Part shown: positions 14,687 to 50,796 of the stretch, in pieces | Numbering within the stretch: position 1 is the stretch's first letter | How the letters are laid out: each line of letters opens with the position of its first letter | NCBI RefSeq assembly: GCF_011383005.1 | Contig: NZ_CP049935.1 | Coordinates: 3,224,001-3,288,000, forward strand | Source of the DNA: Phycicoccus sp. HDW14 | Lineage (GTDB): Bacteria; Actinomycetota; Actinomycetes; Actinomycetales; Dermatophilaceae | DNA length: 64,000 nucleotides | Direction of reading: 5' to 3' | The notes under the pieces: generated by a model | The model's database searches: none | Told to the model about the DNA's origin: nothing | The model's input: the letters and a program-made list of their open reading frames with translations, nothing else | Position numbers and translations under genes: made by a program

Positions 14687-16039
14687 TCAGCGGCGGCGGT
14701 CGAACACGGCGTCGACCGCCGGGATGCGCGCCCGGTAGCCGGTGAGCAGCTCGCGGGCCACGGTGACGGAGTCGACGAGCGGGTGCACCGCGAAGGCCTC
14801 GACCGCCCGCTGCTCCGACCCCGTCGTCGACGCCTCGATGACGAGCCGCTCGACGGCCTTGACCTGCTGGACCAGCCCGAGCGGGTGCCCGACGAGGGGC
14901 AGGACCGCGTGCGGGTGCGGCCCGTCGGCGTCGACCGTGCACGGCACCTCGACGACCGCGTCGTCCGGCAGGCCCGGTACCGTCCCGCCGTTCCGGACGT
15001 CCAGGATCAGCTCGGCCGGCTCGCCGCGGGAGATGGCGGCCATGATGGCCAGCGCGACCCCCTCGTACCCACCGCCCTGCACGTCGGCCTCGTCGCGCTC
15101 CTCGTCGGCCTCGCGCGCCTCCTTCATGTAGGTGGCGTTGCGCTCCATCCGGACCCGGTCCCACTCGGCCAGCGCCCCTGTGCCGGAACCTGTCCCGGCC
15201 AGCCCGGCGTAGAACGCCCGCTGCTGCGCCAGGAGGTACTCGCCCCGCGTCTGCCCCGAGCCGGTGATCGACCGGACGGCGTCGCGGGTGAAGTAGTAGT
15301 AGTAGAGGTACTCGTTGGGGATGGTCCCGAGGGTGCGCAGCCAGTCGAGGCCGAAGAGCTGCCCCTCCTCCATCGACCCGAGCAGCGCGTCGTCGGCCAG
15401 GAGGTCGGGCAGCACGTCGCGGCCGCCGTGCGAGACCCCGCGCAGCCAGCCGAGGTGGTTGAGGCCGACGTAGTCGACCACCGTCTCGGCCGGGTCGATG
15501 CCGAGGGTGGCAGCAGCCCTGCGCCCCAGCCCGATCGGGCTGTCGCAGATGCCGACGACCCGGTCGCCGAGCACCGACTGCATCGCCTCGGTGATCATCC
15601 CGGCGGGGTTCGTGAAGTTGATGACCCAGGCATCGGGTGCCACCGCCGCGACCCGCCGCGCGACGTGCAGCGCGACCGGCACGGTGCGCAGCCCGTACGA
15701 CAGGCCGCCGGGGCCTGTGGTCTCCTGCCCGAGCAGGCCGAGGTCGAGGGCGACGCGCTCGTCGGCCGTGCGCCCCTCGAGACCGCCGACCCGGATGGCC
15801 GAGAAGACGAAGTCTGCGCCCTCGAGGGCGGTGTCGAGGTCGGTGGTCACGTGCACGGACGGCGGATCGGCCTGCGCCGCAGCCATCTCGGACAGCACCT
15901 GCTGGATGGCCGCCAGCCGGTCCTCGTCGACGTCGTGCAGCCACACCTCGTCGACCCGCCGCTCGTGCCGGTCGCGCAGCAGCGCGCCGTACACGAGGGG
16001 CGTGCGGAAGCCACCGCCGCCGAGCATCGCGAGCCTCAC
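14687..16039 (-). CDS. Glycoside hydrolase family 4, 6-phospho-beta-glucosidase-like
   Basis: This 450-residue GH4 enzyme has the N-terminal NAD-binding AMLGGGGFRTPLVYG, a FTNPAGMITEA segment, the metal-binding Cys motif ICDSPIGL and the His motif GLNHLGWL. GH4 enzymes cleave glycosidic bonds by NAD- and Mn-dependent redox elimination, usually on 6-phosphorylated disaccharides. The start is the GTG at 16039, overlapping the DeoR stop by four bases. The divergent genes encode a PfkB sugar kinase and a sugar importer, so a phosphorylated or imported disaccharide is the likely substrate. The exact sugar is not known. Confidence 0.9.
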   Translation of the reverse strand: MRLAMLGGGGFRTPLVYGALLRDRHERRVDEVWLHDVDEDRLAAIQQVLSEMAAAQADPPSVHVTTDLDTALEGADFVFSAIRVGGLEGRTADERVALDLGLLGQETTGPGGLSYGLRTVPVALHVARRVAAVAPDAWVINFTNPAGMITEAMQSVLGDRVVGICDSPIGLGRRAAATLGIDPAETVVDYVGLNHLGWLRGVSHGGRDVLPDLLADDALLGSMEEGQLFGLDWLRTLGTIPNEYLYYYYFTRDAVRSITGSGQTRGEYLLAQQRAFYAGLAGTGSGTGALAEWDRVRMERNATYMKEAREADEERDEADVQGGGYEGVALAIMAAISRGEPAELILDVRNGGTVPGLPDDAVVEVPCTVDADGPHPHAVLPLVGHPLGLVQQVKAVERLVIEASTTGSEQRAVEAFAVHPLVDSVTVARELLTGYRARIPAVDAVFDRRR

Positions 16040-16797
16040 GCGAGGACCACCTCGGTACCGGCCGCCCGGCAGGCGTCGAGCGTCGTGGCGTCGGCCCCCT
16101 CGTTGGTCAGCAGGACGTCGACCGCCCCGGCCTCGCAGACCCGCAGCGACCCGGTGCCCGGAAGCTTGTGCGCGTCGACGAGCAGTACGGAGGCGTCGGC
16201 CGACCGCAGCAGGGCCCGCTTGACCGGCACCTCGACCGCCGTCGTGTCGAGGACCGTGCCGTCCGACCGCACCCCCGACGCCCCGAGGAACACCGTCGTG
16301 CCGTGCACCTGGCGCAGGGCGTCCTCGGTGAGCGACCCGACGAGCGAGTGGTAGGTGCGGCGCACCACACCGCCGAGGAGGATGAGCTCGACCCGGTCGT
16401 CGTCGCGCAGCACGTCGAGCACGGCAAGGCTCGCGGTGACGACCGTGACGTCGCGCCCACGCAGCTCGCGTGCCAGGAGCATCGTCGTCGTGCCGATGTC
16501 GAGCACGACGCAGTCGCCGTCGCGCACCATCCCGGCGGCCCGGCGGGCGACGGCGCTCTTCTCGACGGCGTCGGTGGCCGCGACCTCGGCGAACCCGCGC
16601 ACGGCGTCGGCGTCGGCGACCCCGGAGGTCACCGCCCCGCCGTGGACGCGGCGCAGCGCCCCCAGCCGCTCGAGCTCGATGAGGTCGCGCCGGACGGTGG
16701 CGATCGACACCCCGCACAGCCCGGCCAGCTCCTCGGTGGACGCGCTCCCCCGGGCGCGCAGGCGACCGACGATGGATCGCTGCCGCGTCGCTCGCAT
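16036..16797 (-). CDS. DeoR/GlpR family transcriptional regulator
   Basis: This 253-residue repressor has an N-terminal winged helix (STEELAGLCGVSIATVRRDL) and the DeoR sugar-phosphate-sensing domain (LDIGTTTMLLARELRG, LLGGVVRRTYHSLVG, FLGASGVRSDG, VDAHKLPG). It is the first gene of a two-gene unit with the GH4 glycosidase and is divergent from the PfkB-importer operon, which it most likely controls. I prefer the ATG at 16797; an in-frame ATG at 16827 would add ten residues that overlap a likely operator region. The inducer is presumably a phosphorylated sugar. Confidence 0.92.
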   Translation of the reverse strand: MRATRQRSIVGRLRARGSASTEELAGLCGVSIATVRRDLIELERLGALRRVHGGAVTSGVADADAVRGFAEVAATDAVEKSAVARRAAGMVRDGDCVVLDIGTTTMLLARELRGRDVTVVTASLAVLDVLRDDDRVELILLGGVVRRTYHSLVGSLTEDALRQVHGTTVFLGASGVRSDGTVLDTTAVEVPVKRALLRSADASVLLVDAHKLPGTGSLRVCEAGAVDVLLTNEGADATTLDACRAAGTEVVLA

Positions 16798-16812
16798 GGG
16801 GCCACCATAGCG

Positions 16813-16858
16813 ATCAGAAATCGTCATCCCGTGACGGTGTGTGCAGATTTCCGTGCAC
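16813..16858. promoter_or_regulatory. Candidate operator region in the DeoR/PfkB divergent promoter
   Basis: Three small inverted repeats cluster here: GAAATC (16817-16822) with GATTTC (16846-16851), CGTCA with TGACG around 16823-16836, and GTGCA with TGCAC (16841-16858). This stretch is more AT-rich than its surroundings and lies between the DeoR and PfkB starts, as expected for DeoR binding sites. Which repeat is used cannot be told. Confidence 0.45.
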
Positions 16859-16938
16859 CTAGTGAGGGTGCGGACCCGTCCACGGGTGCATGCTGGCGAC
16901 CCACCCGCCGACGCCCCCCGCCCGAGGAGCAGCCCGCC

Positions 16939-18093
16939 GTGACGTCCCCGGCCTTCGACCCGCTCGCCGCGCTGCGCCGTGACGGCGACCCCGAGTGCGA
17001 CGTCTTCGTCTGGGGCACCGTCTTCCTCGACATCATCATGACCGGCCTCGAGGCGCTGCCCGACGGCGGCCAGGAGGTGTGGGCCACCGGCATGGGCTCG
17101 TGTCCGGGCGGCATCGCCAACCTCGCCGTCGCGGCCCGCCGGCTCGGCCTGCGCACCTCGCTCGCCGCGGCCTTCGGCGACGACGCGTACGGCGACTTCT
17201 GCTGGGAGACCCTGGCCGACGAGGAGCGCGTCGACCTCAGCCGCTCGCGCCGCTTCGAGGGCTGGCACTCCCCCGTCACCGTGTCGATGGCCGTCGCCCG
17301 TGACCGCGGGATGGTCAGCCACGGCCACGCGCCCCCGCTCGACCCCACGGCGCTCATCGGCGACCCGCCCCGCTCGCGCGCCGTGATGGCCGAGCTCGCG
17401 CCCGACCGCCCGCTGACCGGCGGCACCGACGAGACCTGGGTCGAGAAGGCCCGGGCCGCCGGGGCGCTCGTCTTCGCCGACGTCGGATGGGACCCCTCGG
17501 GCCGCTGGCCGAAGGAGGTCCTCGACCAGCTCACCGTCTGTGACGCGTTCCTGCCCAACGCCGTCGAGGCGATGGCCTACACCCGCACCCGCACGCCCAA
17601 CGAGGCGCTCTACGTGCTCGCCGACCTCGTCCCGCTCGCCGTCGTGACCAACGGCGAGGAGGGTGCGCTGGCCATCGACTCGACCACCGGCGAGGAGGCG
17701 GTCGTGCCGGCGCTGCGCGTCGACGCCCTCGACCCCACGGGCGCCGGCGACGTCTTCGGGGCGGCCGTCGTCCTCGGCACGGTGGCCGGCTGGCCGCTGC
17801 CGCAGCGCATCGGGTTCGCCGCGCTCTGCTCGGCCCTGGCCGTGCAGCACTTCGGGGGGTCGCTCGCCGCACCGGGCTGGGGCGACATCGCCGACTGGTG
17901 GCACCACCTGCGCGACGGCGAGTCCACCGACAGCTACCACCGGTCGCTGCGCCGCCGGTACTCCTTCCTCGACGACCTCGTGCCCGACGTCCCCATCGGC
18001 GCCGAGCGTCGAGCCACCGCCACCATCGCCCGCCACGTCGACGTCGAGGGCTACCGCCCCGTCGCCACCACCACCCCAGGAGAGCCCTCATGA
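16939..18093 (+). CDS. PfkB family carbohydrate kinase
   Basis: This 384-residue sugar kinase has the N-terminal substrate region (VWGTVFLDIIMTGLEALPDG), the first PfkB signature (GSCPGGIANLAVAARRLG) and the catalytic signature DPTGAGDVFGAAVV with its base Asp. It is longer than typical ribokinases because of a C-terminal extension of about 80 residues (WWHHLRDGESTDSYHRS...). The GTG at 16939 follows GAGGAGC. It overlaps the substrate-binding protein start by four bases (ATGA at 18090). It probably phosphorylates the sugar brought in by the downstream ABC importer. Confidence 0.9.
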   Translation: MTSPAFDPLAALRRDGDPECDVFVWGTVFLDIIMTGLEALPDGGQEVWATGMGSCPGGIANLAVAARRLGLRTSLAAAFGDDAYGDFCWETLADEERVDLSRSRRFEGWHSPVTVSMAVARDRGMVSHGHAPPLDPTALIGDPPRSRAVMAELAPDRPLTGGTDETWVEKARAAGALVFADVGWDPSGRWPKEVLDQLTVCDAFLPNAVEAMAYTRTRTPNEALYVLADLVPLAVVTNGEEGALAIDSTTGEEAVVPALRVDALDPTGAGDVFGAAVVLGTVAGWPLPQRIGFAALCSALAVQHFGGSLAAPGWGDIADWWHHLRDGESTDSYHRSLRRRYSFLDDLVPDVPIGAERRATATIARHVDVEGYRPVATTTPGEPS

Positions 18094-19450
18094 GGAGACG
18101 ACCCACGACCACCCTCATCGCCGCCGGGATGCTCGGCGCCCTCGCGCTGGCGGCCTGCACGCCCGGCTCGACGAGCGGCGGCGGCCCCACCGCGTCGCAG
18201 AGCGGCGCCGTGAACACCGACCCCGCCTCGATGGGCACGGTGACCCTGACCGTCTGGGACCAGGAGGTCCGCGGCGGCCAGGCGGCCCAGATCGAGGAGC
18301 TCAACAAGGAGTTCCACGCCAAGTACCCGAACATCACGCTCAAGCGGGTCACGCGCTCGTTCGACGACCTCAAGACGACGCTCGGGCTGGCCCTCTCCGG
18401 CAACACCCCGCCCGACGTCTTCCAGGCCAACAACGGCCGCCCCGACATGGGCAAGTTCGTCCAGGCCGGCCAGCTGCTCCCGCTCGACCGGTACGCCGAC
18501 GCCTACCAGTGGGACGAGCGCTATCCCGAGTCGGTGCGCAAGTACTCGAGCTACTCGACCGACGGCAAGACCTTCGGCACCGGTTCGCTCTACGGGCTCC
18601 CCAGGTCGGCGAGGTCGTCGGCGTCTACGCCGACAAGGCGGTGCTCGCCAAGGCCGGCATCACCGAGGTCCCCACCACGTGGGCCGACTTCGAGGCCAGC
18701 CTCGCGACCCTGAAGGCCAAGGGCCAGCAGCCGCTCGTGCTCGGCAACCTCGACAAGTGGCCGGCCATCCACGTCTTCGGCACGGTGCAGGCCCAGACCA
18801 CGCCGGCCGACCAGATCCGCCAGCTCGGCTTCGGCCAGAAGGGTGGGAGCTGGGTGACCCCGGAGAACACCCAGGCCGCCCAGACCCTCGTCGACTGGGT
18901 CGACAAGGGCTACTTCGGCAAGGACGTCAACGGCCTCGGGTACGACCCGGCCTGGCAGGCCTTCTCCAAGGGCACCGGCGCCTACCTCATCGCCGGCACC
19001 TGGCTGCAGGCCGACCTCGGCAAGGCGATGGGTGACGACCTGACGTTCGTCCTGCCGCCCAAGGCCCAGCAGACCCCGGCCGCGACCGGCGGCACCGGCA
19101 TCCCGTGGGCGGTGTCGAGCAGGACGAAGAACCCCGACGCCGCCGCCGCGTACATCGACTTCATCACGAGCAAGGACGCGATGGGCGTGCTCGCGAAGAC
19201 CGAGAACCTTCCGGTCGCCGACACCGCCGACCAGAAGGCGCCGAGCGCCATCGGGCAGGACGTCTTCACGGCGTTCGGCACGGCGGTCGACGACGACGCC
19301 CTCGTGCCGTACCTCGACTACGCGACCCCGACGATGGCCGACACCCTCGGTGCCGCGCTCCAGGACCTGCTCGCGAAGAAGGCGACCCCGGAGCAGTTCC
19401 TCCAGACGGTGCAGAAGGACTACGGCGACTTCGTCGCCCAGAACGGATGA
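18090..19450 (+). CDS. Sugar ABC transporter substrate-binding lipoprotein (one apparent frameshift)
   Basis: This family 1 extracellular solute-binding protein has a lipoprotein signal peptide (LALAAC, lipid-anchored Cys23). The body shows LTVWDQEVRGGQAAQIEELN and, later, PAATGGTGIPWAVSSRTKNP. The frame breaks at a C run at 18599-18602, where four bases should be five to join TGSLYGLP to QVGEVVGVYADK. Restored length is 453 residues, normal for the family. It is coupled to the kinase upstream and to the permease downstream by ATGA overlaps. No ATPase is encoded in the cluster, so a shared MsiK-like ATPase is expected elsewhere, which is common in actinobacteria. Confidence 0.9.
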
Positions 19451-20387
19451 CGCAGACCGCGACCGCGGCGAGCACCCGCGAGGCCACCCCGCAGCGGGCC
19501 CGCCGCCGACGAGGCGGCGGGCCCCCGGGGAGCCCCGCGCCGTCGGCTGGCTCTACGTCCTGCCGGCCCTGCTCGTCTACGCCGCCTTCCTCCTCTACCC
19601 GCTGCTGCGGGCGGTGCAGATCTCGCTCTACGACTGGAACGGCAACACGCTCGCGACGTGGGTCGGCCTCGACAACTACGTCGACGTCGTCTCCGACCCC
19701 GCGCTGCGCGCCTCGTTCGGGCACGCCCTGGTCCTCATCGCCTTCTACGCGCTGCTGCCGCTGCTCGTCGGGCTCGTCCTCACGGCGATCCTGTCGCGGG
19801 CGAGGGTGCGGGGGCTGGGGTTCTTCCGCACCGTGGTCTTCCTGCCCCAGGTCGTCGCGATGGTCGTCATCGCCGTCGCCTGGAGGCGGATGTACGCCCC
19901 GGACGGCAGCGTCAACGACCTGCTGTCCGCCCTCGGGATGGGGTCGCTGACCCGCGGCTGGCTCGGCGACTACACCGCGGCGCTGCCCGCCGTCGGGCTC
20001 ATCGGCACGTGGTTCGAGATCGGGCTGGTCACCGTGCTGCTGCTCGCCGGCACCGGCAAGATCCCCACCGAGCTCTTCGAGGCCGCCCGGCTCGACGGCG
20101 CCGGGCCCGTCCGCGAGTTCGTCACCGTCACCCTGCCCGCGCTGCGCGGTGAGATCGCGGTGGCCCTGACCCTCACCGTCATCGCCGCCCTACGGACCTT
20201 CGACCTCGTCTACGTGACGACCCGCGGCGGGCCCGGCACCAGCACGTCGGTGCCGTCGTACGAGGTGTACAACCGGGCCTTCCAGCAGGGCCGCGTCGGG
20301 TCGGCCGCCGCCATCGCCGTGGTGCTGACGGTCATCATCTTCGCGATCTCGTTCGGGATCACCCGGATCGCCGAGCGGGACCGCTGA
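19447..20387 (+). CDS. Sugar ABC transporter permease, MalF-like (one apparent frameshift)
   Basis: The ATG at 19447 overlaps the substrate-binding protein stop. The first 25 or so residues (MTQTATAASTREATPQ...) are in one frame and the membrane part (VGWLYVLPALLVYAAFLL...) in another. The G run at 19527-19530 has four bases where five restore continuity, giving 313 residues. Six transmembrane helices are apparent, and the EAA loop is ELFEAARLDGAGPVREFVTV. It forms a heterodimeric channel with the next gene product. Confidence 0.9.
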
Positions 20388-21214
20388 TGCGCGTCTCCCG
20401 CGGCGAGCGCACCGCCAACTACGTCGTCCTCGTGGCCTTCGCCGTCTTCGCCCTGTGGCCGGTGCTCACCGTGCTGCTCGCGGCCCTCGGCCCGGACGAC
20501 GCCGCCGGCGGGTCGGTGGGCGCCGGCGTCCTCGGCCTGCACCCCGAGAACTTCGTCACCGCCTGGGACCAGGGCCGGTTCGGCAGCTACCTGCGCACCA
20601 GCCTGTTCGTGTCCGGCACGGTCGTCGTCGTCAGCGTGCTGTTCTCGCTGCTCAGCGGATACGCCCTCGGCACGATGCCCTTCCGCGGCTCGACCGTGCT
20701 CTTCTACCTCTTCCTCGTCGGCATCATGATGCCGAGCGAGGCCGTGCTCGTGCCGCTCTACTACGACCTGCGCAGCCTCGGGCTCACCGACACGATCTGG
20801 GCGCTGCTGCTGCCACAGGTCGCGCAGTCGGTGGCCTTCGGCACGTTCTGGATGCGCGCCTGGTTCCGGTCCGCGAACCGGTCCGTCGTCGAGGCCGCCC
20901 GGCTCGACGGCGCCTCGACCTGGCGCATCCTCTGGCAGGTGCTCGTGCCGCTCGCCCGACCGGCGGTCGTCACCCTCACCGTGCTCACCTTCATGTGGAC
21001 CTGGAACGAGTTCCTCGTCCCCCTCGTCATGGTCGTCTCCGAGTCGCTGCGCACGGCACCGCTCGGGCTGGCGTTCTTCCAGGGGCAGTACACGCAGGGC
21101 TTCACCCTCCTCGCGGCCGGTGCCTGCATCGTCGCGACGCCGGTGGTCGTGCTCTACCTGTTCCTGCAGCGCCACTTCATCGCCGGGATGCTCGAAGGAG
21201 CAGTCCGGGAGTAG
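20387..21214 (+). CDS. Sugar ABC transporter permease, MalG-like
   Basis: This 275-residue inner membrane protein has about six helices and the conserved EAA loop SVVEAARLDGASTWRILWQV, which contacts the ATPase. The start ATG at 20387 overlaps the previous stop by one base (TGATG). It ends in the typical MalG-like IAGMLEGAVRE tail. Together with the MalF-like permease and the lipoprotein it makes an importer of the CUT1 type, whose substrates are usually oligosaccharides. Confidence 0.93.
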   Translation: MRVSRGERTANYVVLVAFAVFALWPVLTVLLAALGPDDAAGGSVGAGVLGLHPENFVTAWDQGRFGSYLRTSLFVSGTVVVVSVLFSLLSGYALGTMPFRGSTVLFYLFLVGIMMPSEAVLVPLYYDLRSLGLTDTIWALLLPQVAQSVAFGTFWMRAWFRSANRSVVEAARLDGASTWRILWQVLVPLARPAVVTLTVLTFMWTWNEFLVPLVMVVSESLRTAPLGLAFFQGQYTQGFTLLAAGACIVATPVVVLYLFLQRHFIAGMLEGAVRE

Positions 21215-21253
21215 GGGGCAGGGGATCCGTTCCGCGACAGGAAGAGGTCGACG

Positions 21254-24052
21254 ATGACCAGGTTCACGAGCAGATCACGCACGTCCGCGAAGAGGGCGGC
21301 GACGCTCGCCGTCGCGGGGGCGCTCGCCCTCTCCGGCGCGGGGGTGGCGGTCGCGGCTCCGGCCGGTGACCGCGGTGGGGACCACGGCGGGCACGACGCA
21401 CGGCCGCCGGCCTCGAGCACCTCGGCCGGGACCCCGGTCGACCTCGGCGCGCTCTTCGTCGGCGCGCACCCCGACGACGAGGCCGGGTCGCTGTCGGCGT
21501 TCGGCGAGTGGGGGCACGAGAACGGCCTGCGCACCGGCGTCGTCACGGTGACCCGCGGGGAGGGTGGGGGCAACGCCGTCGGCCCCGAGGAGGGTCCGCC
21601 GCTCGGGCTGCTGCGCGAGAAGGAGGAGCGCTCGGCGGTCGCGAAGGCCGGCATCACCGAGGTGTTCACCCTCGACGAGGTCGACTTCTACTACACCGTG
21701 AGCGACGCCCTGACCCAGCAGGTCTGGGACCACGACCAGGTGCTCGGCAAGGTCGTGCGGGTCATCCGCGAGACCCGTCCGGAGATCCTCTTCACGATGG
21801 ACCCCGCCCCGTCGCCGGGCAACCACGGCAACCACCAGGACGCCGCGCGACTGGCCACCGAGGCCTTCGAGGCCGCCGGCGACCCGAAACGCTTCCCCGA
21901 GCAGATCCGCCGCGAGGGGCTGGAGCCGTGGGCGCCCGCCAAGCTGCTGACCCGCGGCACGGCCACCGCCCCCACCGGCCAGCAGTGCATGTCGCAGCTG
22001 ACGACGAAGGACCCGACCCAGACCGTCTACGGCGTCTGGTCCGGGGCGACGGCTCCGGTCGGTCGGTCGTGGGCGGCCGTGGAGCGCGACGCCCAGCGCC
22101 AGTACGCCTCGCAGGGCTGGGCGGGCTTCCCCGACGTGTCGAGCGACCCGACCAGGCTCGGGTGTGACTTTTTCCGCCAGCTCGACTCGCGCGTGCCGTT
22201 CGCCGAGCCGGGAACGGATGCGGCGCACCGCTCGTCGGCCGTGCTGGCCGGTGCGACGGTCCAGCAGCCTGGCGCTGCCCCCCTCGGCACCGGGCTGCGG
22301 GTCGACACCGACCGCTTCGGTGTCCTTCCGGGTCAGGCGTTCCGGGCGACGGTCTCGGTCACCGCTCCCCGGCGCGCACTGCCCGGTGCCACCGTCGCCC
22401 TCGACCTGCCCGACGGCTGGACCGCCCGGGGCGACGGTGACCTCGGCACCGTCCGGCCTGGTCACACGGTGGAGCGCACGTTCCGGGTCACCCCGGCCGC
22501 GGACGCGACGGCCGGTGAGCGGCAGCGCATCGCGGCGCGACTGGCGACGCGGGCCGGGTCGGGGTACTCCGACCGGGTCGTCGAGGTCGTCCCGACGGTG
22601 TCGGCGCAGCAGCAGCTGCTGCCGCAGGTCGCCGCCTTCGAGACCTGGGCCCCGACCGTGGCGCACCAGCCGCAGCTGAGCGGCACCGTGACCCCCGTCC
22701 TGTCCCTGCCGTCCGGAGGAAGCCGTGAGGTGCGGGTCGACTTGCGCAACAACGGGTCCGGCACGGATGCCGGCACGGTGTCGCTCGACCTGCCCGCCGG
22801 GTTCAGCGCCTCCCCGGCCTCGGTGACGTACGGTCCGCTGGCCGGTGGCGCCACCGGCAGCGTGACCTTCACGGTGACCAACACCGACACCTCGCTCAGG
22901 ACGTCGAACCAGGGCGGGACGCCCGGGGCGGCCGCCGGTGACTACGCCTACTCGATCGTCACGACGACCCGGGCGGGGACGGCCACCAGCAAGGCCGCCC
23001 TCGAGCTCGTTCCGGCGACGACCATCGAGCAGGCCTCTGCCGCACCGGTGGTCGACGGGGTCGAGTCACCGGGCGAGTACCCCGGTGACGCGCTCGACCT
23101 CTCCGGGCTCTGGGAGGGCACGGCCTGCTCCTCGGCCGCTGACTGCTCGGCAACGGGCAAGGTGGCCTGGCACGACGACACGCTCACCGTCCTCGTCCAC
23201 GTCACCGACGACACCCTCGGCACGAAGCTCGCGGCCGCCGACTGCAAGCGGCACTGGCGCACCGACTCCGTGGAGATCGCCGTCGACCCGCGCGGCGACA
23301 GCGAGAACACGTCGACCACCTTCAAGGCCGCCGTGCTGCCGGTGACCGCGGAGGGGCCGGCGTGCGGCCTGCGCGACGCCGACAACCACCAGGGCCCGGC
23401 GGCCGAGACGGCACCGGGGATGAAGGTGGCCTCGGTCGTCGACGAGCCCTACGACGGCTACACCGTCGAGGTGTCCATCCCGATGTCCGAGCTCCCGGGC
23501 GCCGTCGACCCCGAGCACCTCGGGCTCGACGTGTTCGTCTACGACTCCGACACCCAGGACAAGACCGGCCAGACGCGCATCGGCTGGTCGACCTGGGGTG
23601 GCGTGCAGGGCGACCCGTACCGCTGGGGTGTCGCGACGCTGCCGGGGTACACCCCGCCCGCCGACCGGCCGGCGGAGGCGCCGGACCCCGTCATCCCGCT
23701 GACGGCGCTGTCCTCGCTCGACAGCCCGCCCAGCCTGGCCCAGGCCGTGCGGGTCGACGTTCCGCTCGCCGGTGACCCCGCGAGCCGTCCGCAGGACGCC
23801 GGTTGGGTCGAGAGCGCCCGGTCCGGCCGGGGTGCGGTGACCGCCCGGCTGCGGACGAACGCGTCGGGCACGGCGCACGTCGTGGTCGTCGACCGCGACG
23901 GGACCGTCGGGTCGCGGACCGTCGAGGTGCGCGCGGGACGTCCGGAGGTGCGGGTCGCGCTCGACCGGGCGCTCGGGCGGGACGCGCGGGTGTACGTCGG
24001 CTGGCTCGACCGGCGCGGCGGCACCCTCGCCTCGGTGGCGCGCCTGCGCTGA
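21254..24052 (+). CDS. Secreted PIG-L (LmbE-like) deacetylase with NEW3-type and CBM9-like domains
   Basis: This is a 932-residue multidomain exoprotein. A signal peptide (residues 1-35) precedes a PIG-L/LmbE N-deacetylase domain (about 60-330) with the zinc motif AHPDDE at 71-76 and a second metal segment GNHGNHQDA. Two NEW3/NPCBM-associated beta-domains follow (about 350-560), then a CBM9-like sugar-binding domain (about 600-800) and a short beta tail. PIG-L enzymes remove N-acetyl groups from sugars such as GlcNAc. It lies 39 bases after the importer, so it may pre-process an extracellular amino-sugar glycan for uptake. This is among the longer architectures of the family. Confidence 0.85.
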   Translation: MTRFTSRSRTSAKRAATLAVAGALALSGAGVAVAAPAGDRGGDHGGHDARPPASSTSAGTPVDLGALFVGAHPDDEAGSLSAFGEWGHENGLRTGVVTVTRGEGGGNAVGPEEGPPLGLLREKEERSAVAKAGITEVFTLDEVDFYYTVSDALTQQVWDHDQVLGKVVRVIRETRPEILFTMDPAPSPGNHGNHQDAARLATEAFEAAGDPKRFPEQIRREGLEPWAPAKLLTRGTATAPTGQQCMSQLTTKDPTQTVYGVWSGATAPVGRSWAAVERDAQRQYASQGWAGFPDVSSDPTRLGCDFFRQLDSRVPFAEPGTDAAHRSSAVLAGATVQQPGAAPLGTGLRVDTDRFGVLPGQAFRATVSVTAPRRALPGATVALDLPDGWTARGDGDLGTVRPGHTVERTFRVTPAADATAGERQRIAARLATRAGSGYSDRVVEVVPTVSAQQQLLPQVAAFETWAPTVAHQPQLSGTVTPVLSLPSGGSREVRVDLRNNGSGTDAGTVSLDLPAGFSASPASVTYGPLAGGATGSVTFTVTNTDTSLRTSNQGGTPGAAAGDYAYSIVTTTRAGTATSKAALELVPATTIEQASAAPVVDGVESPGEYPGDALDLSGLWEGTACSSAADCSATGKVAWHDDTLTVLVHVTDDTLGTKLAAADCKRHWRTDSVEIAVDPRGDSENTSTTFKAAVLPVTAEGPACGLRDADNHQGPAAETAPGMKVASVVDEPYDGYTVEVSIPMSELPGAVDPEHLGLDVFVYDSDTQDKTGQTRIGWSTWGGVQGDPYRWGVATLPGYTPPADRPAEAPDPVIPLTALSSLDSPPSLAQAVRVDVPLAGDPASRPQDAGWVESARSGRGAVTARLRTNASGTAHVVVVDRDGTVGSRTVEVRAGRPEVRVALDRALGRDARVYVGWLDRRGGTLASVARLR

Positions 24053-44068: not shown

Positions 44069-45373
44069 TCAGCCCGCGAGGACGAAGTAGCGCAGCCAGA
44101 CGTAGGGCACGCAGATGCCGATGGTCGCCGCGGTCACGATGAGGCCGTACCTCGTGAAGGTCCAGAACGAGATCGGGTGGTCGTTGCGCTTGGCGATGCC
44201 CGTGATGACGACGTTGGCGCTGGCACCGATCGCGGTCGCGTTGCCCCCGAGGTCGGCGCCCAGGGCCAGCGCCCACCACAGCGACTGCCGGCCGGGTGGC
44301 AGCCCGGCTCCGGGACCGACGAGGTCGTGCACGAGCGGTGACATCGTCGCCACGTACGGGATGTTGTCGACGATGCCGGAGAGGGCCGCCGACCCGACGA
44401 GGATGCCCTGCGCGGCGGCGAGGTAGTTCTCGCCGATGGCGTCGGTCAGGGAGCCGGCGAGGTCACCGATGATCCCGGCCTTGACGAGCGAGCCGACCAT
44501 GACGAACAGGCCGGCGAAGAACAGGAGGGTCTCCCACTCGACGTCAGCGAGGAACTTCTCGGACGGCAGGCGCGAGGCGAGCACCGAGGCCCCGGCGCCG
44601 AGCAGCGCGACGAGCGAGGGGTCGAGGCCGGTCAGGGGGTGGGTCAGGAAGCCGACCAGGACGGCGCCGAGGATGAGGAGCATCCGTCGCAGCAGGCGGG
44701 GGTCGCTGATGGTCTCTCGCGGGGTCAGGGCCATGACGGCCTCGGCGCGCTCCGGGTCGTAGCGCAGCCGCCGACCCCAGAGCAGCCAGGCGAGGAGGAC
44801 GAAGACGCCGAGCAGCACGACGACGACCGGCGCGAGGTGGACGAGGAAGTCGTTGAAGGTCAGCCCGGCCCGGCTCGCGATGATGATGTTCGGCGGGTCG
44901 CCGATGAGGGTCGCGGTTCCGCCGATGTTGCTCGCCATCGCCTCGGCGAGGAGGAAGGGCACCGGGGCCAGCGCCAGCCGGTCGCAGAGCAGGAGGGTGA
45001 CCGGCGCGACGAGCAGGACGGTCGTGACGTTGTCGAGCAGCGCCGAGGCGACCGCCGTGATGACGATGAGCAGCGCCATCATCCGGAAGGGCCGGGCCCT
45101 GGACCGTTGGGCGGCCCAGATCGCGACGAACTCGAAGACGCCGGTCTGGCGCAGGATGCCGACGATGATCATCATCCCCAGGAGCAGGAAGATGACGTTC
45201 CAGTCGACACCGGTGTCCTCGGAGAAGAAGACGTCCTCGCCGCGGACCACCCCGATGAGCACCATCGCCGCCGCGCCGCCGAGGGCGACGGCCGTGCGGT
45301 TGAGCTTCTCGGTCGCGATGAGGACGTAGGCGCCGACGAAGACGGCGACCGCGAGGACGGAGGTCACGCTCAC
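44069..45373 (-). CDS. SLC13/ArsB/NhaD-type ion transporter
   Basis: This 434-residue membrane protein has about ten to twelve hydrophobic segments, MIIVGILRQTGVFEFVAIW and ALLDNVTTVLLVAPVTLLLC (the conserved DNVTT motif), and SNIGGTATLIGDPPNIIIAS with the GDPPN signature of the ArsB/NhaD superfamily. It probably moves an anion or Na+ across the membrane. The GTG at 45373 overlaps the CBS gene stop by four bases, so the two are co-translated and the CBS protein probably regulates this transporter. Confidence 0.9.
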   Translation of the reverse strand: MSVTSVLAVAVFVGAYVLIATEKLNRTAVALGGAAAMVLIGVVRGEDVFFSEDTGVDWNVIFLLLGMMIIVGILRQTGVFEFVAIWAAQRSRARPFRMMALLIVITAVASALLDNVTTVLLVAPVTLLLCDRLALAPVPFLLAEAMASNIGGTATLIGDPPNIIIASRAGLTFNDFLVHLAPVVVVLLGVFVLLAWLLWGRRLRYDPERAEAVMALTPRETISDPRLLRRMLLILGAVLVGFLTHPLTGLDPSLVALLGAGASVLASRLPSEKFLADVEWETLLFFAGLFVMVGSLVKAGIIGDLAGSLTDAIGENYLAAAQGILVGSAALSGIVDNIPYVATMSPLVHDLVGPGAGLPPGRQSLWWALALGADLGGNATAIGASANVVITGIAKRNDHPISFWTFTRYGLIVTAATIGICVPYVWLRYFVLAG

Positions 45374-45921
45374 GGCGCCTCACGGCTCGGAGCCGACTCG
45401 TCGGGCGTGCCGCGCAGGATGATGTCCTTCTCGAGGCGGCGGCGGATGAGGTCGCTGTCCTGCCCGGCGGCCGAGGCGATGGCCGCGAGCACCCGGGACA
45501 TCGTCAGCACCCCGTGGAAGGTCCCGTCGCGGTCGCGGACCAGGACCATCGGGCTGTGGCTGCCGTCCATCGCCGAGGCGATCTCGAGCAGGGTGTCCTC
45601 GGGGAGGACCGCGGGAGGGGTCGTCGCGGTCAGCTTCTCGTCGTCGAGCAGGTCGCCGATCGTCGCCTCGTTGAGGCGGCGGCACAGGTCGTCGGCGCCC
45701 TTCTCGTCGTAGGCGTGCACGAGCGTGCGGTCGTCGCGCACCCAGCGGGGCAGCACCAGGCCGAACAGCTGGCTCCCGGGGATGACCGCGATCGGCACCC
45801 CCGACTCGTCGGCGACGACGAGGGCCGAGAGCCGGTACTCGGCGACGACGCGGGCCGCCTCGGCGCCCGTGGTCGAGCGCCTGACGGTGGGGACCTGCTC
45901 GACGAGCTCTTCGGCGCGCAT
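45370..45921 (-). CDS. CBS-domain protein, probable transporter regulator
   Basis: This 183-residue protein contains two CBS motifs: VEQVPTVRRSTTGAEAARVV with ALVVADESGVPIAVIPGSQL, and AVLPEDTLLEIASAMDGSHS with MVLVRDRDGTFHGVLTMSRV. CBS pairs bind adenosyl nucleotides and gate transporters or enzymes. The ATG at 45919-45921 is 31 bases after the NagA stop, and its own stop overlaps the transporter GTG. The end of the coding region is the TGA at 45370-45372. Confidence 0.9.
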   Translation of the reverse strand: MRAEELVEQVPTVRRSTTGAEAARVVAEYRLSALVVADESGVPIAVIPGSQLFGLVLPRWVRDDRTLVHAYDEKGADDLCRRLNEATIGDLLDDEKLTATTPPAVLPEDTLLEIASAMDGSHSPMVLVRDRDGTFHGVLTMSRVLAAIASAAGQDSDLIRRRLEKDIILRGTPDESAPSREAP

Positions 45922-45952
45922 GGTGGCTGCCTCTCCGGTGCGGTGGTCGTGC

Positions 45953-46887
45953 TCAGGGGGTGTCGGGCAGGCCGAGGGCGCGCCGGGGGTGCGGGTGGCG
46001 GCCGTCAGCACGTCCTCCTCGGGGAGCCCGGCCACCTCCACCGCCCAGCGCACGCAGTCGGCGAGGGTCGAGGTGCCGCCGGCGATCGAGCCGGTGCTCA
46101 CGGTGCGGGCGGTGCCGTCGGCGACGACGACCTCGAGGCTGCCGAGCCGGTAGCGCCCGTCGCCGAGACCGGTGGCGGCCATCGCGTCGGACACGAGCAC
46201 GACGGCGTCCGGCCCGACCGTGTCGAAGACCATCCGCACGACCTCGGGAGCGACGTGCACCCCGTCGGTGATCAGCTCGAGGACCGCCTCGCCCCGGGCG
46301 GCGGCGGCCAGGGCGGCGGCGACCGGCCCGCCGGCGCGGTGGTGCAGCGGCGGCATCCCGTTGAAGAGGTGCGTCACGAGCGCCGGCGATCCCTGGAGGT
46401 CGGCGACCTCTGCCAGCGTGCGCGCCGTGCGGGCGGCGTCGGCCTCGGTGTGCCCGACGGACGGCCGGATGCCGTGCTCGACGAGGGCGCGCACGAGGGC
46501 GTCCGCACCGGGCAGCTCGGGGGCGAAGGTCATGTGCCGCAGCGCGTCCGGGGCTCCGGCCAGGGCCACCGCCTCGGCGAGGCGCTCGACGAGCGAGGGG
46601 TCGGGGTCGGTGAGGGCGGCGGGGTCGTGGGCCCCGCGGCGGCCCTCGGCGAGGAACGGGCCCTCGAGGTGGATGCCGGCCAGCGTCCCGTCCGCCACGA
46701 GCGGTGCGAGCGTCGTCACCCGGGCGACGAGGTCGTCGAACGGTGCCGAGACGAGGCTGGCGACGAGGCGCTCGACGCCGGCCGAGTGGTGGTGGGCGGC
46801 GGCGGTGCGGGTGCCCTCGGTCGTGCCACCGAGCTCGGCGCCGGCGGCACCGTGGCAGTGGATGTCGACGAGCCCGGTCACGTCCAC
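45953..46887 (-). CDS. nagA: N-acetylglucosamine-6-phosphate deacetylase-like amidohydrolase (short, one apparent frameshift)
   Basis: The protein has VDIHCHGAAGAELGG (metal-binding HxH), GIHLEGPFL (catalytic-side E), SVGHTEADAART, THLFNGMPPLHHRAGG and ELITDGVHV, all classic NagA motifs. It ends in a frame change at a G run 45985-45989 (five bases where six give RRALGLPDTP then stop). At about 311 residues it lacks the first 50 or so residues of the usual NagA, including part of the N-terminal beta-sandwich. The GTG at 46887 is the only sensible start before the divergent M50 gene. It removes acetyl from GlcNAc-6-phosphate in amino-sugar catabolism. Confidence 0.88.
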
Positions 46888-47745: not shown

Positions 47746-48570
47746 TTACTTGACGGAGCCGGCGGTCAGGCCGCCGACGAGGTGCTTCTCGATGAGCGCG
47801 AAGAGGATGACGACCGGCACGACGGCGATGACCGAGGCGGCGAACAGCTGGTCCCAGTTCTGCTCGTAGCCGGTGACGTAGGACCGGAACCCGACGGTCA
47901 GCGGCTTCTTGTCGTCGTCGATCATCAGGGTCAGCGCGACGACGTACTCGTTCCACGCCGCGATGAACGTGAAGATCACGGCGGTGACGAGCCCGGGCAG
48001 CGTCAGGGGCAGCATGATGCGGCGGAGCATCCCGACCCGCCCGACGCCGTCGAGCGCCGCGGCCTCCTCGACCTCGAGCGGGATCGAGGAGAAGAAGCCG
48101 TGGAGGATCCAGATCGCGAAGGCGAGGTTGAAGGCCGCGTTCGTGATGATCAGCGCCCCGTAGGTGTTGATCATGTTCAGCTCGAAGAACTGCCGGTACA
48201 GCCCGACGACGAGCGAGGTCGGCGCGAACATCTGGGTGATGAGCACGACGAGCAGGAACGCCCCCCGCCCCGGGAAGCGGTGCCGCGCGGTCATGAACGC
48301 CGCCGGGATGGCCACGACGATGACCACCGCCGTCGCGCCGAGCGAGACGATGAGCGAGGTCAGCAGCCAGTGCGGGAAGCGGCCGTCGGTGACCACCGTG
48401 AGGTAGGTGTCGAACTGCCACACCCGCGGCAGGAACGACGGCGGGGTGGTCTTGACGTCGGTGCTCGTGCGAAAGCTGTCGAGCACCATCACGAGGTACG
48501 GCGCGAGGAACACGAGCCCGACGACGGCCGCGGTGAACGCGACGAGCCGGGGGCGGCGGACCTTGGTCAT
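47746..48570 (-). CDS. Sugar ABC transporter permease, MalG-like (second importer)
   Basis: This 274-residue membrane protein has six hydrophobic helices and the EAA motif VEEAAALDGVGRVGMLRRIM. The ATG at 48568-48570 overlaps the preceding permease stop by four bases. It ends with the typical LVGGLTAGSVK tail. It is the last gene of a substrate-binding protein, MalF-like and MalG-like run on the minus strand. No ATPase is encoded here either. Confidence 0.93.
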   Translation of the reverse strand: MTKVRRPRLVAFTAAVVGLVFLAPYLVMVLDSFRTSTDVKTTPPSFLPRVWQFDTYLTVVTDGRFPHWLLTSLIVSLGATAVVIVVAIPAAFMTARHRFPGRGAFLLVVLITQMFAPTSLVVGLYRQFFELNMINTYGALIITNAAFNLAFAIWILHGFFSSIPLEVEEAAALDGVGRVGMLRRIMLPLTLPGLVTAVIFTFIAAWNEYVVALTLMIDDDKKPLTVGFRSYVTGYEQNWDQLFAASVIAVVPVVILFALIEKHLVGGLTAGSVK

Positions 48571-49535
48571 CGCGACGTCTCCTCGCGCCAGTTGACGAGC
48601 TTCAGGTAGACGAGCACGACGACGAGGATGATCGCGACGTTGATGATGCCCGTGGCGGCCGACATCCCGACGTCCTTCTCCTGGCTCTTGAACGCGAGCT
48701 TGTACATGAACGTGATGAGGGTGTCGTGGCCGAAGCCGGGGTTGCGGTCGTTGAGCGTGTAGATGATCGGGAAGCTGTTGAACACGTAGATCGTGTTGAG
48801 CACGGTGGCGATGAGCATCGCGGGGCGCAGCAGCGGGAAGGTGATCTGCCGCCAGCGCTGCCAGGGCGAGGCGCCGTCGACCTCGGCGGCCTCCATGACG
48901 TCGTCGGGGATCGCGTTGAGCCCGGCGATGAAGACGAAGATCGTGAACGGCAGCGACACGAAGACGCCGACGACGACCATCGAGGCCATCGTGAAGCGGT
49001 CGTCGCCGAGGAACGAGATCGGTGTCGAGATGACGTGCAGCTTGAGCAGCACGTGGTTGACCAGCCCGTAGTTGTCGTCGTACAGCAGGACGAACAGCTG
49101 GCTGGTGATGACGAGCGAGGCGGCCCACGGCACGATGACCGCCCAGCGCACGAAGCGCCGGCCCGGGAAGTCCTTGACGAGCAGCTGGGCCAGGGCCAGC
49201 GACAGGACGATGGTGATGGCCACGACGGCGACCACCCAGACGACGGTGTTCTTCAGCACCACCGGGAGGTCGGGGTAGCTGAGCACCTTCGTGTAGTTGT
49301 CCCAGCCCGCGGCGCCCTTGTAGAGCCCGGTGATGGAGTACTCGGAGCGCGAGGCCCGGAAGAGCATGATCGCCGGGAACACCACGACCCCGACGATGAG
49401 GAGGATCGCCGGGGTCAGCCAGAGCAGCGCGACGGGGGCGCTGACCCGGCCGACCCCGGAGGACCGCCGCCGCTGGCGGGGTCCCCCGGGGGTCGTGCGG
49501 GCCGACGGCGCCTGGACGTCGCCGGTCGTCGTCAC
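48567..49535 (-). CDS. Sugar ABC transporter permease, MalF-like (second importer)
   Basis: This 322-residue membrane protein has a basic, Arg-rich N-terminal tail, six hydrophobic helices and the EAA loop MEAAEVDGASPWQRWRQIT. The GTG at 49535 is five bases after the substrate-binding protein stop. It works with the MalG-like permease and lipoprotein as a CUT1 importer. Confidence 0.93.
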   Translation of the reverse strand: MTTTGDVQAPSARTTPGGPRQRRRSSGVGRVSAPVALLWLTPAILLIVGVVVFPAIMLFRASRSEYSITGLYKGAAGWDNYTKVLSYPDLPVVLKNTVVWVVAVVAITIVLSLALAQLLVKDFPGRRFVRWAVIVPWAASLVITSQLFVLLYDDNYGLVNHVLLKLHVISTPISFLGDDRFTMASMVVVGVFVSLPFTIFVFIAGLNAIPDDVMEAAEVDGASPWQRWRQITFPLLRPAMLIATVLNTIYVFNSFPIIYTLNDRNPGFGHDTLITFMYKLAFKSQEKDVGMSAATGIINVAIILVVVLVYLKLVNWREETSR

Positions 49536-49540
49536 GTCGG

Positions 49541-50796
49541 TCAGCCCCCGGCCTCGGCGGACTTCTGGAGCTTGTCGAGGGTGGCCTTCGGGTCACCGGT
49601 GATGCCGCCACCGAGGTTCTGCTGCACGGCGAGCTTGACCTTGTCCCACGTCGGGTCGTCGGTGGGGGTCAGGCGGGCGTTCGGCAGGGTGTCGAGGTAG
49701 ACCTTGAGCTTGTCGTCCTTCTGGAAGTACTCGACGCCCGAGGTCGTCACCGGGAGGAAGCCCTCCTTCTCGATGAACGTGTTGATCTGGTCCTTCGAGT
49801 AGTAGAGCTCGTAGAACGCCTTGACCGCGTCCTGGTTGCCCTTCTTCTTGAAGGCCATGAGGTAGTCGGTGACACCGAAGGTCTTGCTCTCGGAACCGTC
49901 GTTGCTCGGGAACGGCGCGACCGCGTACTTGACGGTGCCGTCCTTGTCGAGGTCACCGGCCAGCGGCGAGAAGCCGACGACCATCCCGGCCTTGCCCGAC
50001 TTGAAGAGGTCGAAGGCGTCGGCGCGGTTGGTGCGGGCAGGGTTCGACTGCGTGAGACCGGCCGCCGCGAGCTTCTTCATGAAGGTCAGGGTCTCGACGT
50101 TCTTGTCCGAGTTGATCGACCACGTGCCGTCGGTCTTCCAGTCGCCGCCGTTGTTGAACAGCCACATCGAGAACTCGCCCTGCGACTCCTCCGGGCCGAG
50201 CGGCATCGCGTAGCCGGTGTTGCCGGTCGCCTTGACCTTCTGGGCGTCGGCCTCGAGCTCGGCCCAGGTCGTCGGCGGGCCGAGATGCCGGCCTTGCTGA
50301 AGAGGTCGGTGTTGTAGAAGAGCGCGCGGGCGCTGCTGAGGTCCGGGAAGCCGTAGAACTTGCCGTCGTAGGTGCCGTACTTGACGAAGGTCGGGAGGAT
50401 GTCGGACTTGACCTCCGAGGGCAGGACGTCGTCGGCGCTGTAGAGCAGGCCGTCCTTGGCGTAGCTGGCGTACGCGTTGAGGTTGAGGATGTCCGGCGGC
50501 TGGTTGTTCTGGATCATCGTCGAGGACTGCTGGTCGATGTTGTCCCAGCTGACGACGTTGACGTCGAGCGTGTACCCGTACTTGCTCTTGTACTCCTTGG
50601 CGAAGGCGTCCCAGAACGCCTTGGTGTTGTCCTTGGAGTACTCGGCGGCCATGAGGGTGATGGTCGTGGCCTTGTCGCCGCTGCCGCCCGAGTCACCCCC
50701 GGCGTCGCCCGCACCACTGCCCCCGCCACACGCGCCGAGCAGCAGCGCCGGGACGAGCGCCCCGACCGCGACCGCGGCCCTTGTCGACTTCCCCAT
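49541..50796 (-). CDS. Sugar ABC transporter substrate-binding lipoprotein (second importer, one apparent frameshift)
   Basis: The lipoprotein signal is clear (LLLGAC, lipid-anchored Cys23). The body has TITLMAAEYSKDNTKAFWD and QNNQPPDILNLNAYASYAKD, matching family 1 solute-binding proteins, and ends in the expected ATLDKLQKSAEAGG. A frame change at a G run 50277-50279 (three bases where four restore ISAPPTTWAEL) splits the gene; corrected length is 418 residues. It is divergent from a ROK repressor and a ROK kinase, so it is likely induced by the same sugar. The ligand is unknown. Confidence 0.9.

Follow-up and report, generated by a model that had tools for sequence, protein, structure and literature searches.

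A conserved gene cluster in Phycicoccus sp. HDW14 that joins a modular PIG-L de-N-acylase to a GH4 glycosidase, and its possible role in the use of alpha-linked glucosaminyl-inositol

A 64,000 nucleotide stretch of the genome of Phycicoccus sp. HDW14 (contig NZ_CP049935.1, positions 3,224,001 to 3,288,000; the window) carries, at 14687-24052, a seven-gene cluster for a PIG-L family de-N-acylase, a family GH4 glycosidase, a PfkB-family sugar kinase, a CUT1 importer and a DeoR-family regulator. We tentatively read the locus as a system for the catabolism of alpha-linked N-acyl-glucosaminyl-inositol (GlcNAc-Ins, or a glycan of the mycothiol or glycosylphosphatidylinositol (GPI) type), a reading in which our confidence falls somewhat short of even. 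All seven genes score above the Pfam cut-offs for their named families and lie where a preliminary description of this DNA had placed them, with DeoR and GH4 on the minus strand facing PfkB, the solute-binding protein (SBP), MalF, MalG and PIG-L on the plus strand. Glucosaminyl-inositol is the core of both mycothiol and GPI anchors, and a literature search of limited reach found no bacterial catabolic route for it. If the reading is true, the cluster accounts for recycling of the glucosaminyl-inositol linkage; a PIG-L enzyme then has a part in nutrient acquisition outside the cell, and an alpha marker that can be tested delimits a group of GH4 proteins. Enzymes cutting glucosamine-alpha-inositol would also be useful tools for work on mycothiol and GPI.

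The substrates, reactions and regulation that we infer would run as follows. The secreted PIG-L protein would strip the N-acyl group outside the cell, with its CBM9-like module holding it to the source, and the CUT1 importer would take up the free-amine glucosaminyl-inositol. The sugar would be phosphorylated by PfkB, probably at O6, and the NAD-dependent, alpha-type GH4 enzyme would cleave the product to glucosamine-6-phosphate and myo-inositol, the former passing to a NagB-like deaminase and the latter to the Iol pathway. DeoR would control both divergent units. The succession of deacetylation, import, phosphorylation by PfkB and cleavage by GH4 was already proposed in the preliminary description, and it is still the best reading of the order. 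More broadly, we offer as a guarded proposal, possible rather than probable, that the related loci described below form a dedicated feeding pathway for alpha-glucosaminyl-inositol across Actinomycetota and at single loci of Bacillota and Chloroflexota (to which we take the Paenibacillus and Thermomicrobiales loci, respectively, to belong), where an extracellular modular PIG-L enzyme would de-N-acylate mycothiol, GlcNAc-Ins or GPI-type glycans, and the kinase and the alpha-type GH4 would release glucosamine-6-phosphate and myo-inositol. The N-acyl group of mycothiol is itself removed by a PIG-L family enzyme, Mca.

The GH4 gene (14687-16039, minus strand) was assigned from the Pfam domains Glyco_hydro_4 and 4C, the nearest solved chains and a table of active-site residues. 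Both Pfam GH4 domains are present, Cys165 and His195 (metal-binding/catalytic) are conserved, and the residues listed for the -1 subsite of StChbF, including two Arg (PMC13197890, in the part of the paper available), are represented in the window enzyme by R90, E106, T107, N144, C165, H195, Y244/Y247 and R265. At the position of StChbF Asn173, beside the catalytic Cys, the window enzyme has Asp166. In an alignment of 114 sequences, Asp stands beside the Cys in 64/64 GH4 proteins from PIG-L loci and in 45/45 from other GH4 loci (a set that overlaps partly in genomes with the 64; the second, distant GH4 of the window genome lies outside the table), and Asn in three csn-type GH4 proteins and E. 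coli ChbF. Other listed subsite residues are conserved apart from a Phe at position 247 in 1/45 of the sequences from other loci. Among the five solved chains shown, from a total of 14, Asp is found in the 6-phospho-alpha-glucosidases 1u8x and 6vc6 and in 6wbt, and Asn in the 6-phospho-beta-glucosidases 5c3m and 1s6y; the window enzyme carries the alpha marker and lacks the beta marker. We take this Asp (Asp172 in GlvA) to be the acid associated with alpha substrates. On the strength of this residue the window GH4 is predicted to cleave an alpha link, which argues against chitosan, one of the foods suggested in the preliminary description; nothing pointing to the mucin-type or teichoic-acid-type glycans also suggested there was seen. 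At six compared loci (L135, L137, L140, L143, L154 and L160; loci are numbered with L and genomes with G, and L099 is the closest relative) the GH4 slot, directly after PfkB, holds a GH4 with 32-35% identity that keeps the Asp beside the Cys.

The PIG-L gene (21254-24052, plus strand) was identified from Pfam, its metal site and its predicted fold (mean pLDDT, 88.4). Its catalytic domain (residues 67-204, 21452-21865; PF02585 and VIA fold comparison) has the PIG-L/LmbE-like arrangement of an HxDD motif and a second-motif His forming a metal site in a Rossmann-like domain, the motif being as given in the available portion of PMC4101496, and residues H72, D74, D75, H191 and H194 are invariant among 29 aligned sequences. 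Read by eye, the N-terminus is signal-like and, together with the intact metal site, it is consistent with the extracellular deacetylation that had been put forward for this protein. The length of 932 residues given earlier also stands, while the carbohydrate-binding modules, described in the plural, come down to one CBM9-like module (residues 614-797, 23093-23644; PF06452), which matches the solved CBM9 structures 1i82 and 7nwn with a VIA Z of 20.3, plus a NEW3/NPCBM-associated stretch (residues 381-423, 22394-22522; PF10633). The window genome has 12 PF02585 matches (two may be one gene), several of them in open frames of more than 600 codons, and a single match to full-length PIG-L at E <= 1e-30; no second copy of the cluster was present at the eight stretches with PIG-L paralogues that were read in this genome.

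Named genomes were scanned with an alignment of PIG-L, and the best 80 of 231 confirmed stretches were examined, a set biased to close relatives because only these 80 were kept. Loci flanked on each side by more than 8.5 kb (60/80) were counted as untruncated, and the other 20 have less than 8.5 kb on one or both sides. Neighbouring genes were taken from a simple gene caller, with rough starts and some genes missed, and most neighbour clusters are without annotation. The nearest named relative among the best 80 of 231 is Phycicoccus sonneratiae, with a PIG-L protein 88% identical. Across the 80 loci, matches were found to GH4 in 64, PfkB in 66, DeoR in 56, SBP in 69, MalF in 72 and MalG in 73, and the co-occurrence that the preliminary description had named as a check is borne out, with GH4, PfkB, SBP, MalF and MalG found together at 49/60 untruncated PIG-L loci (62/80 overall). 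The order of the genes varies. Divergent units as in the window are found, as are many Actinomadura loci with the order DeoR-GH4-(GH76)-PfkB-SBP-MalFG-PIG-L and others with PfkB-GH4-SBP-MalFG-PIG-L; L076 (genome G125) reads PIG-L-PfkB-GH4-SBP-MalFG, Pseudokineococcus (L129) has PIG-L on the opposite flank of GH4, and the arrangement is convergent in Paenibacillus (L155). In a Thermomicrobiales bin (L167, a cut contig outside the 49) the genes from SBP to PIG-L are followed by PfkB-GH4. Such re-assembly in many gene orders argues for a shared function. In Nonomuraea gerenzanensis a match covers 92% of 14687-21214, with PIG-L behind it. Among 58 genomes (the window genome and relatives), GH4 was found in 31 at E <= 1e-40 and PIG-L in eight at E <= 1e-30; PIG-L lies within the GH4 cluster in seven of these eight, window included, and in G023 it accompanies SBP-MalF-MalG on a contig other than that of GH4. 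Of 396 genomes sampled from the phylum (own included), five have PIG-L at E <= 1e-60 and 20 have GH4 at E <= 1e-90. At L138, L146 and L147, PfkB-SBP-MalFG-PIG-L was found with no GH4 match in the locus, and one gene family precedes PfkB in all three, with an alanine-racemase N-terminal domain in L146.

At some of the loci the neighbours of the cluster point to inositol. After the core genes, the families counted around the 80 loci (labelled by family searches on sample loci and by eye) were iolG-type (16), GntR (13), ABC-ATPase-like (12), iolB-type (11), iolE-like (9), IolJ-like (9), iolD-type (8) and GH76 (8). Against NCBIfam, iolD, iolB and iolC score above their cut-offs in L161 (iolG and iolE are below, and the IolJ-like gene is without a family), iolD, iolE and iolG do so in Paenibacillus L155, iolD, iolB and iolC in L054 (iolG is below), and iolC in L168. 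A direct search, with Actinomadura proteins as queries, found at least two iol genes at 13/80 loci, i.e. 11/21 from Actinomadura, 1/3 from Arsenicicoccus and one from Paenibacillus; L054, from the window's own family, adds a fourth iol-linked lineage. In a control set, iol genes were found at 0/40 GH4 loci without PIG-L, at least 7 of the 40 being cut by contig ends, and at 1/8 loci with both GH4 and PIG-L. The iolD gene occurs in 45/49 searched genomes of PIG-L loci (from a selection of 50 of the 80 loci that mostly favoured long contigs) and in the window genome; among the 58 genomes it was found in 8/8 with PIG-L vs 31/50 others, a weak comparison that ignores kinship. With iol genes adjoining the cluster in four lineages, myo-inositol is the more likely aglycone.

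For the sugar half of the substrate, a NagB-type gene just under the nagB cut-off adjoins GH4 in L040, on a Curtobacterium plasmid, and one above the cut-off lies behind MalG in L068, both in clusters that share this GH4 and PfkB, which favours glucosamine-6-phosphate as the product; the NagB-like gene of the window genome is located elsewhere and also falls just under the cut-off. Along with the PIG-L family and the fold of the SBP, these two genes favour an amino sugar as the food, as the preliminary description had supposed. Other neighbours are glycosidases. Eight Actinomadura loci have a GH76 alpha-1,6-mannanase-type gene that separates GH4 from PfkB (from Pfam for L148 and by clustering for the other seven), genes for GH38, GH2 and GH29 (fucosidase) stand beside a GH4-DeoR-PfkB module in L090, and GH38 (alpha-mannosidase) and GH2 are found in Streptomyces L041. 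These would suit mannose-bearing forms of the substrate. They would also suit a different alpha-linked N-acetylhexosamine glycan as the food (mannose-bearing GPI, N-glycan fragments, or alpha-GlcNAc/alpha-GalNAc caps), with inositol released in some lineages only or the iol operon there for another reason. We consider this unlikely, as iol-type families are among the commonest neighbour clusters of PIG-L loci and are absent at the 40 GH4 loci without PIG-L. In both L041 and L090 the GH4-DeoR-PfkB module is accompanied by another importer, and no PIG-L was seen.

Several observations weigh against glucosaminyl-inositol as the substrate. The glucosamine of mature GPI is already free. Eleven of the 13 iol-linked loci belong to one genus, Actinomadura, no iol genes were found by the direct search near the cluster in Phycicoccus or Nonomuraea loci, and the iolD gene of the window genome lies about 223 kb from PIG-L. 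The gene set is also not constant: GH4 is missing from 9/60 untruncated PIG-L loci, the cluster of congener G006 lacks PIG-L, and the search of the locus in congener G008 yielded GH4, DeoR and PfkB only. In Paenibacillus L155, which is outside the 49, the permeases are just 28-30% identical and the SBP is without a match. The phylum sample contains four other genomes with PIG-L, and G125 alone among them has it next to PfkB-GH4; PIG-L and GH4 sit on separate contigs, in part short ones, in G073 and G255, and no GH4 match at all was obtained in G259. The PIG-L loci of these last three genomes show no partners, two being near contig ends, and neither do four of the nine loci lacking GH4 (L114, L122, L166 and L173). 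Such cases are what would be expected if PIG-L were a passenger, i.e. a secreted deacetylase with a role of its own (on the cell's own wall, for example) and a chance neighbour of a sugar operon. That is very improbable in our view, given the five partners at 49/60 loci in several gene orders and their presence beside PIG-L in the other orders of L076, L155 and L167.

The remaining points concern likeness by score and by fold. The bit scores of GH4 favour 6-phospho-beta-glucosidases (249 for 5c3m and 242 for 1s6y, vs 177 for GlvA, 1u8x). As matches to the PIG-L catalytic fold, VIA ranks diacetylchitobiose deacetylases (Z 21.1 over 218 residues at 3.2 A) and LnmX equal and ahead of MshB (Z 19.0, 242 residues); Dac, LnmX, MshB and BshB all lie within 2.3 Z, a spread too narrow to indicate a substrate. 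By sequence and fold, the SBP is nearest to the chitin-oligosaccharide binder NagB2, and for the L099 copy the best fold match is the chitin-oligosaccharide binder 7eho (Z 43.7 vs 40.7 for a xylobiose binder); against the NgcE family (TIGR03851) the two halves of the window SBP, which is broken in this assembly, score 27.9 and 52.7 bits, with a cut-off of 399.65. Because the SBP resembles chitin-oligosaccharide binders, the main rival is a pathway for chitobiose or chitosan oligosaccharides, re-assembled from chb and csn, in which PIG-L would deacetylate the non-reducing end of chitobiose, the CUT1 system would import the product, PfkB would phosphorylate the glucosamine and GH4 would cut a beta link. 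The tie of PIG-L with the archaeal deacetylases, the GH4 scores, the NagB-type neighbours and the same logic in csn and chb all fit it. It seems to us fairly unlikely nonetheless: Asp166 stands where ChbF and csn-type GH4 enzymes have Asn, iol genes adjoin the cluster in four lineages, and no chitinase or chitosanase was seen among the few neighbours that are annotated, most being without annotation.

Both systems invoked by this alternative differ from the window cluster in gene content. The csnREFGHK cluster of Streptomyces resembles it in combining a CUT1 importer, a saccharide kinase, a GH4 and a repressor (PMC6097792 and PMC5635096, as far as the portions available describe it), and the csn-type gene order was found in three of the genomes compared (L179-L181). 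In L179, however, the regulator is of the ROK type and the kinase of the BadF/BadG type, where the window cluster has DeoR and PfkB. The csn-type GH4 proteins are 39% (L179) and 37% (L180) identical to that of the window and have Asn beside the Cys in L179-L181, and no PIG-L gene was seen in these three loci. The chb system of E. coli and Salmonella has a deacetylase-GH4 pair, ChbG and ChbF, as the window does, with the same listed -1 subsite residues apart from Asn/Asp. According to the part of PMC13197890 available, which cites others, ChbF is inactive on GlcNAc6P-GlcNAc and ChbG must first remove the acetyl group, a reason for pairing a deacetylase with a GH4. Uptake in the E. coli locus is by a phosphotransferase system (PTS), whereas the window cluster has a CUT1 importer plus PfkB; ChbG, on the same partial source, acts on the imported, phosphorylated sugar, whereas the window PIG-L has a signal-like N-terminus; and ChbF, which cuts a beta link, is 30% identical to the window GH4. 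Measured against the full chb set of PTS, ChbR, ChbF and ChbG, the window thus has CUT1, PfkB and PIG-L instead.

Single enzymes of other pathways are also comparable. MshB and Mca share the PIG-L fold, the HPDD motif and the His pair of the second motif with the window protein, and MshB acts on GlcNAc-alpha-inositol (PMC4101496, in the portion available), but the MshB chain (4ewl) is of about 300 aa and the window protein of 932 aa, with NEW3 and CBM9-like modules. An assignment of the window protein to MshB or Mca proper was rejected, at 37.6 and 44.6 bits against NCBIfam equivalog cut-offs of 224.35 and 277.15, respectively. The diacetylchitobiose deacetylase of Pyrococcus, the best-scoring fold for the PIG-L domain in the tie with LnmX, has a chain of about 260 residues and about 20% identity to the window protein. 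GlvA, a GH4 6-phospho-alpha-glucosidase, has Cys-Asp at the metal site, as does the window GH4, despite its low bit score; as far as the accessible part of PMC10628242 goes, it acts on maltose-6-phosphate-type substrates and prefers alpha links, and BglT beta. We regard the window set as putting known logic together in a new way; its secreted deacetylase is unusual, and its substrate probably belongs to a new class. The earlier statement that the combination matches no described pathway holds to the extent that the exact set was not found in the literature searched; descriptions of its logic exist for chb and csn.

The DeoR gene (16036-16797, minus strand; Pfam HTH_DeoR and DeoRC, and translation) overlaps that of GH4 by four bases. 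The gap between DeoR and PfkB (16798-16938) is the presumed divergent promoter region, in which a DNA alignment of eight sequences shows GGGTGCATGCT at 16884-16894 to be identical in the window and seven congeners, making it a candidate operator or promoter element. The PfkB gene follows at 16939-18093 (plus strand; Pfam PfkB); as a clue to the substrate its subfamily was sought in NCBIfam, and the protein reached no equivalog cut-off. The remaining plus-strand genes are those for the CUT1 solute-binding lipoprotein (18090-19450; SBP_bac_1 in both halves, lipobox by eye) and the MalF-type (19447-20387) and MalG-type (20387-21214) permeases, both with Pfam BPD_transp_1.

The SBP and MalF frames each contain one break in this assembly, a net loss of a single base relative to L099, near 18602 and 19527, respectively. 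Full-length SBP and MalF are present in five congeners (L042, L043, L044, L045 and L047), and the window frames of GH4, DeoR, PfkB, MalG and PIG-L are open over their full length. The genome is a single contig of 4.07 Mb with an estimated completeness of 92.72%, a value that is low for a one-contig genome and suggests that the two breaks are base errors in the assembly. Were they real, the system would be decaying in this strain and could take up nothing, a situation compatible with any of the substrates considered above, and a second importer in the window also has an SBP that looks split between two frames. With five intact frames in the cluster and the completeness value suggesting errors, we think such decay quite unlikely.

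Neither a tRNA nor an Rfam match at gathering score is present in the window. At 47746-50796 on the minus strand lies the second importer, which is of the SBP-MalF-MalG type, and its SBP (49541-50796) is divided over two open reading frames (ORFs), 49541-50206 and 50086-50796, one half matching SBP_bac families. Beside it is an ORF of 505 aa (45370-46887, minus strand) which we do not claim as NagA, since only a CBS domain was detected by Pfam; by eye, its N-terminus looks amidohydrolase-like.

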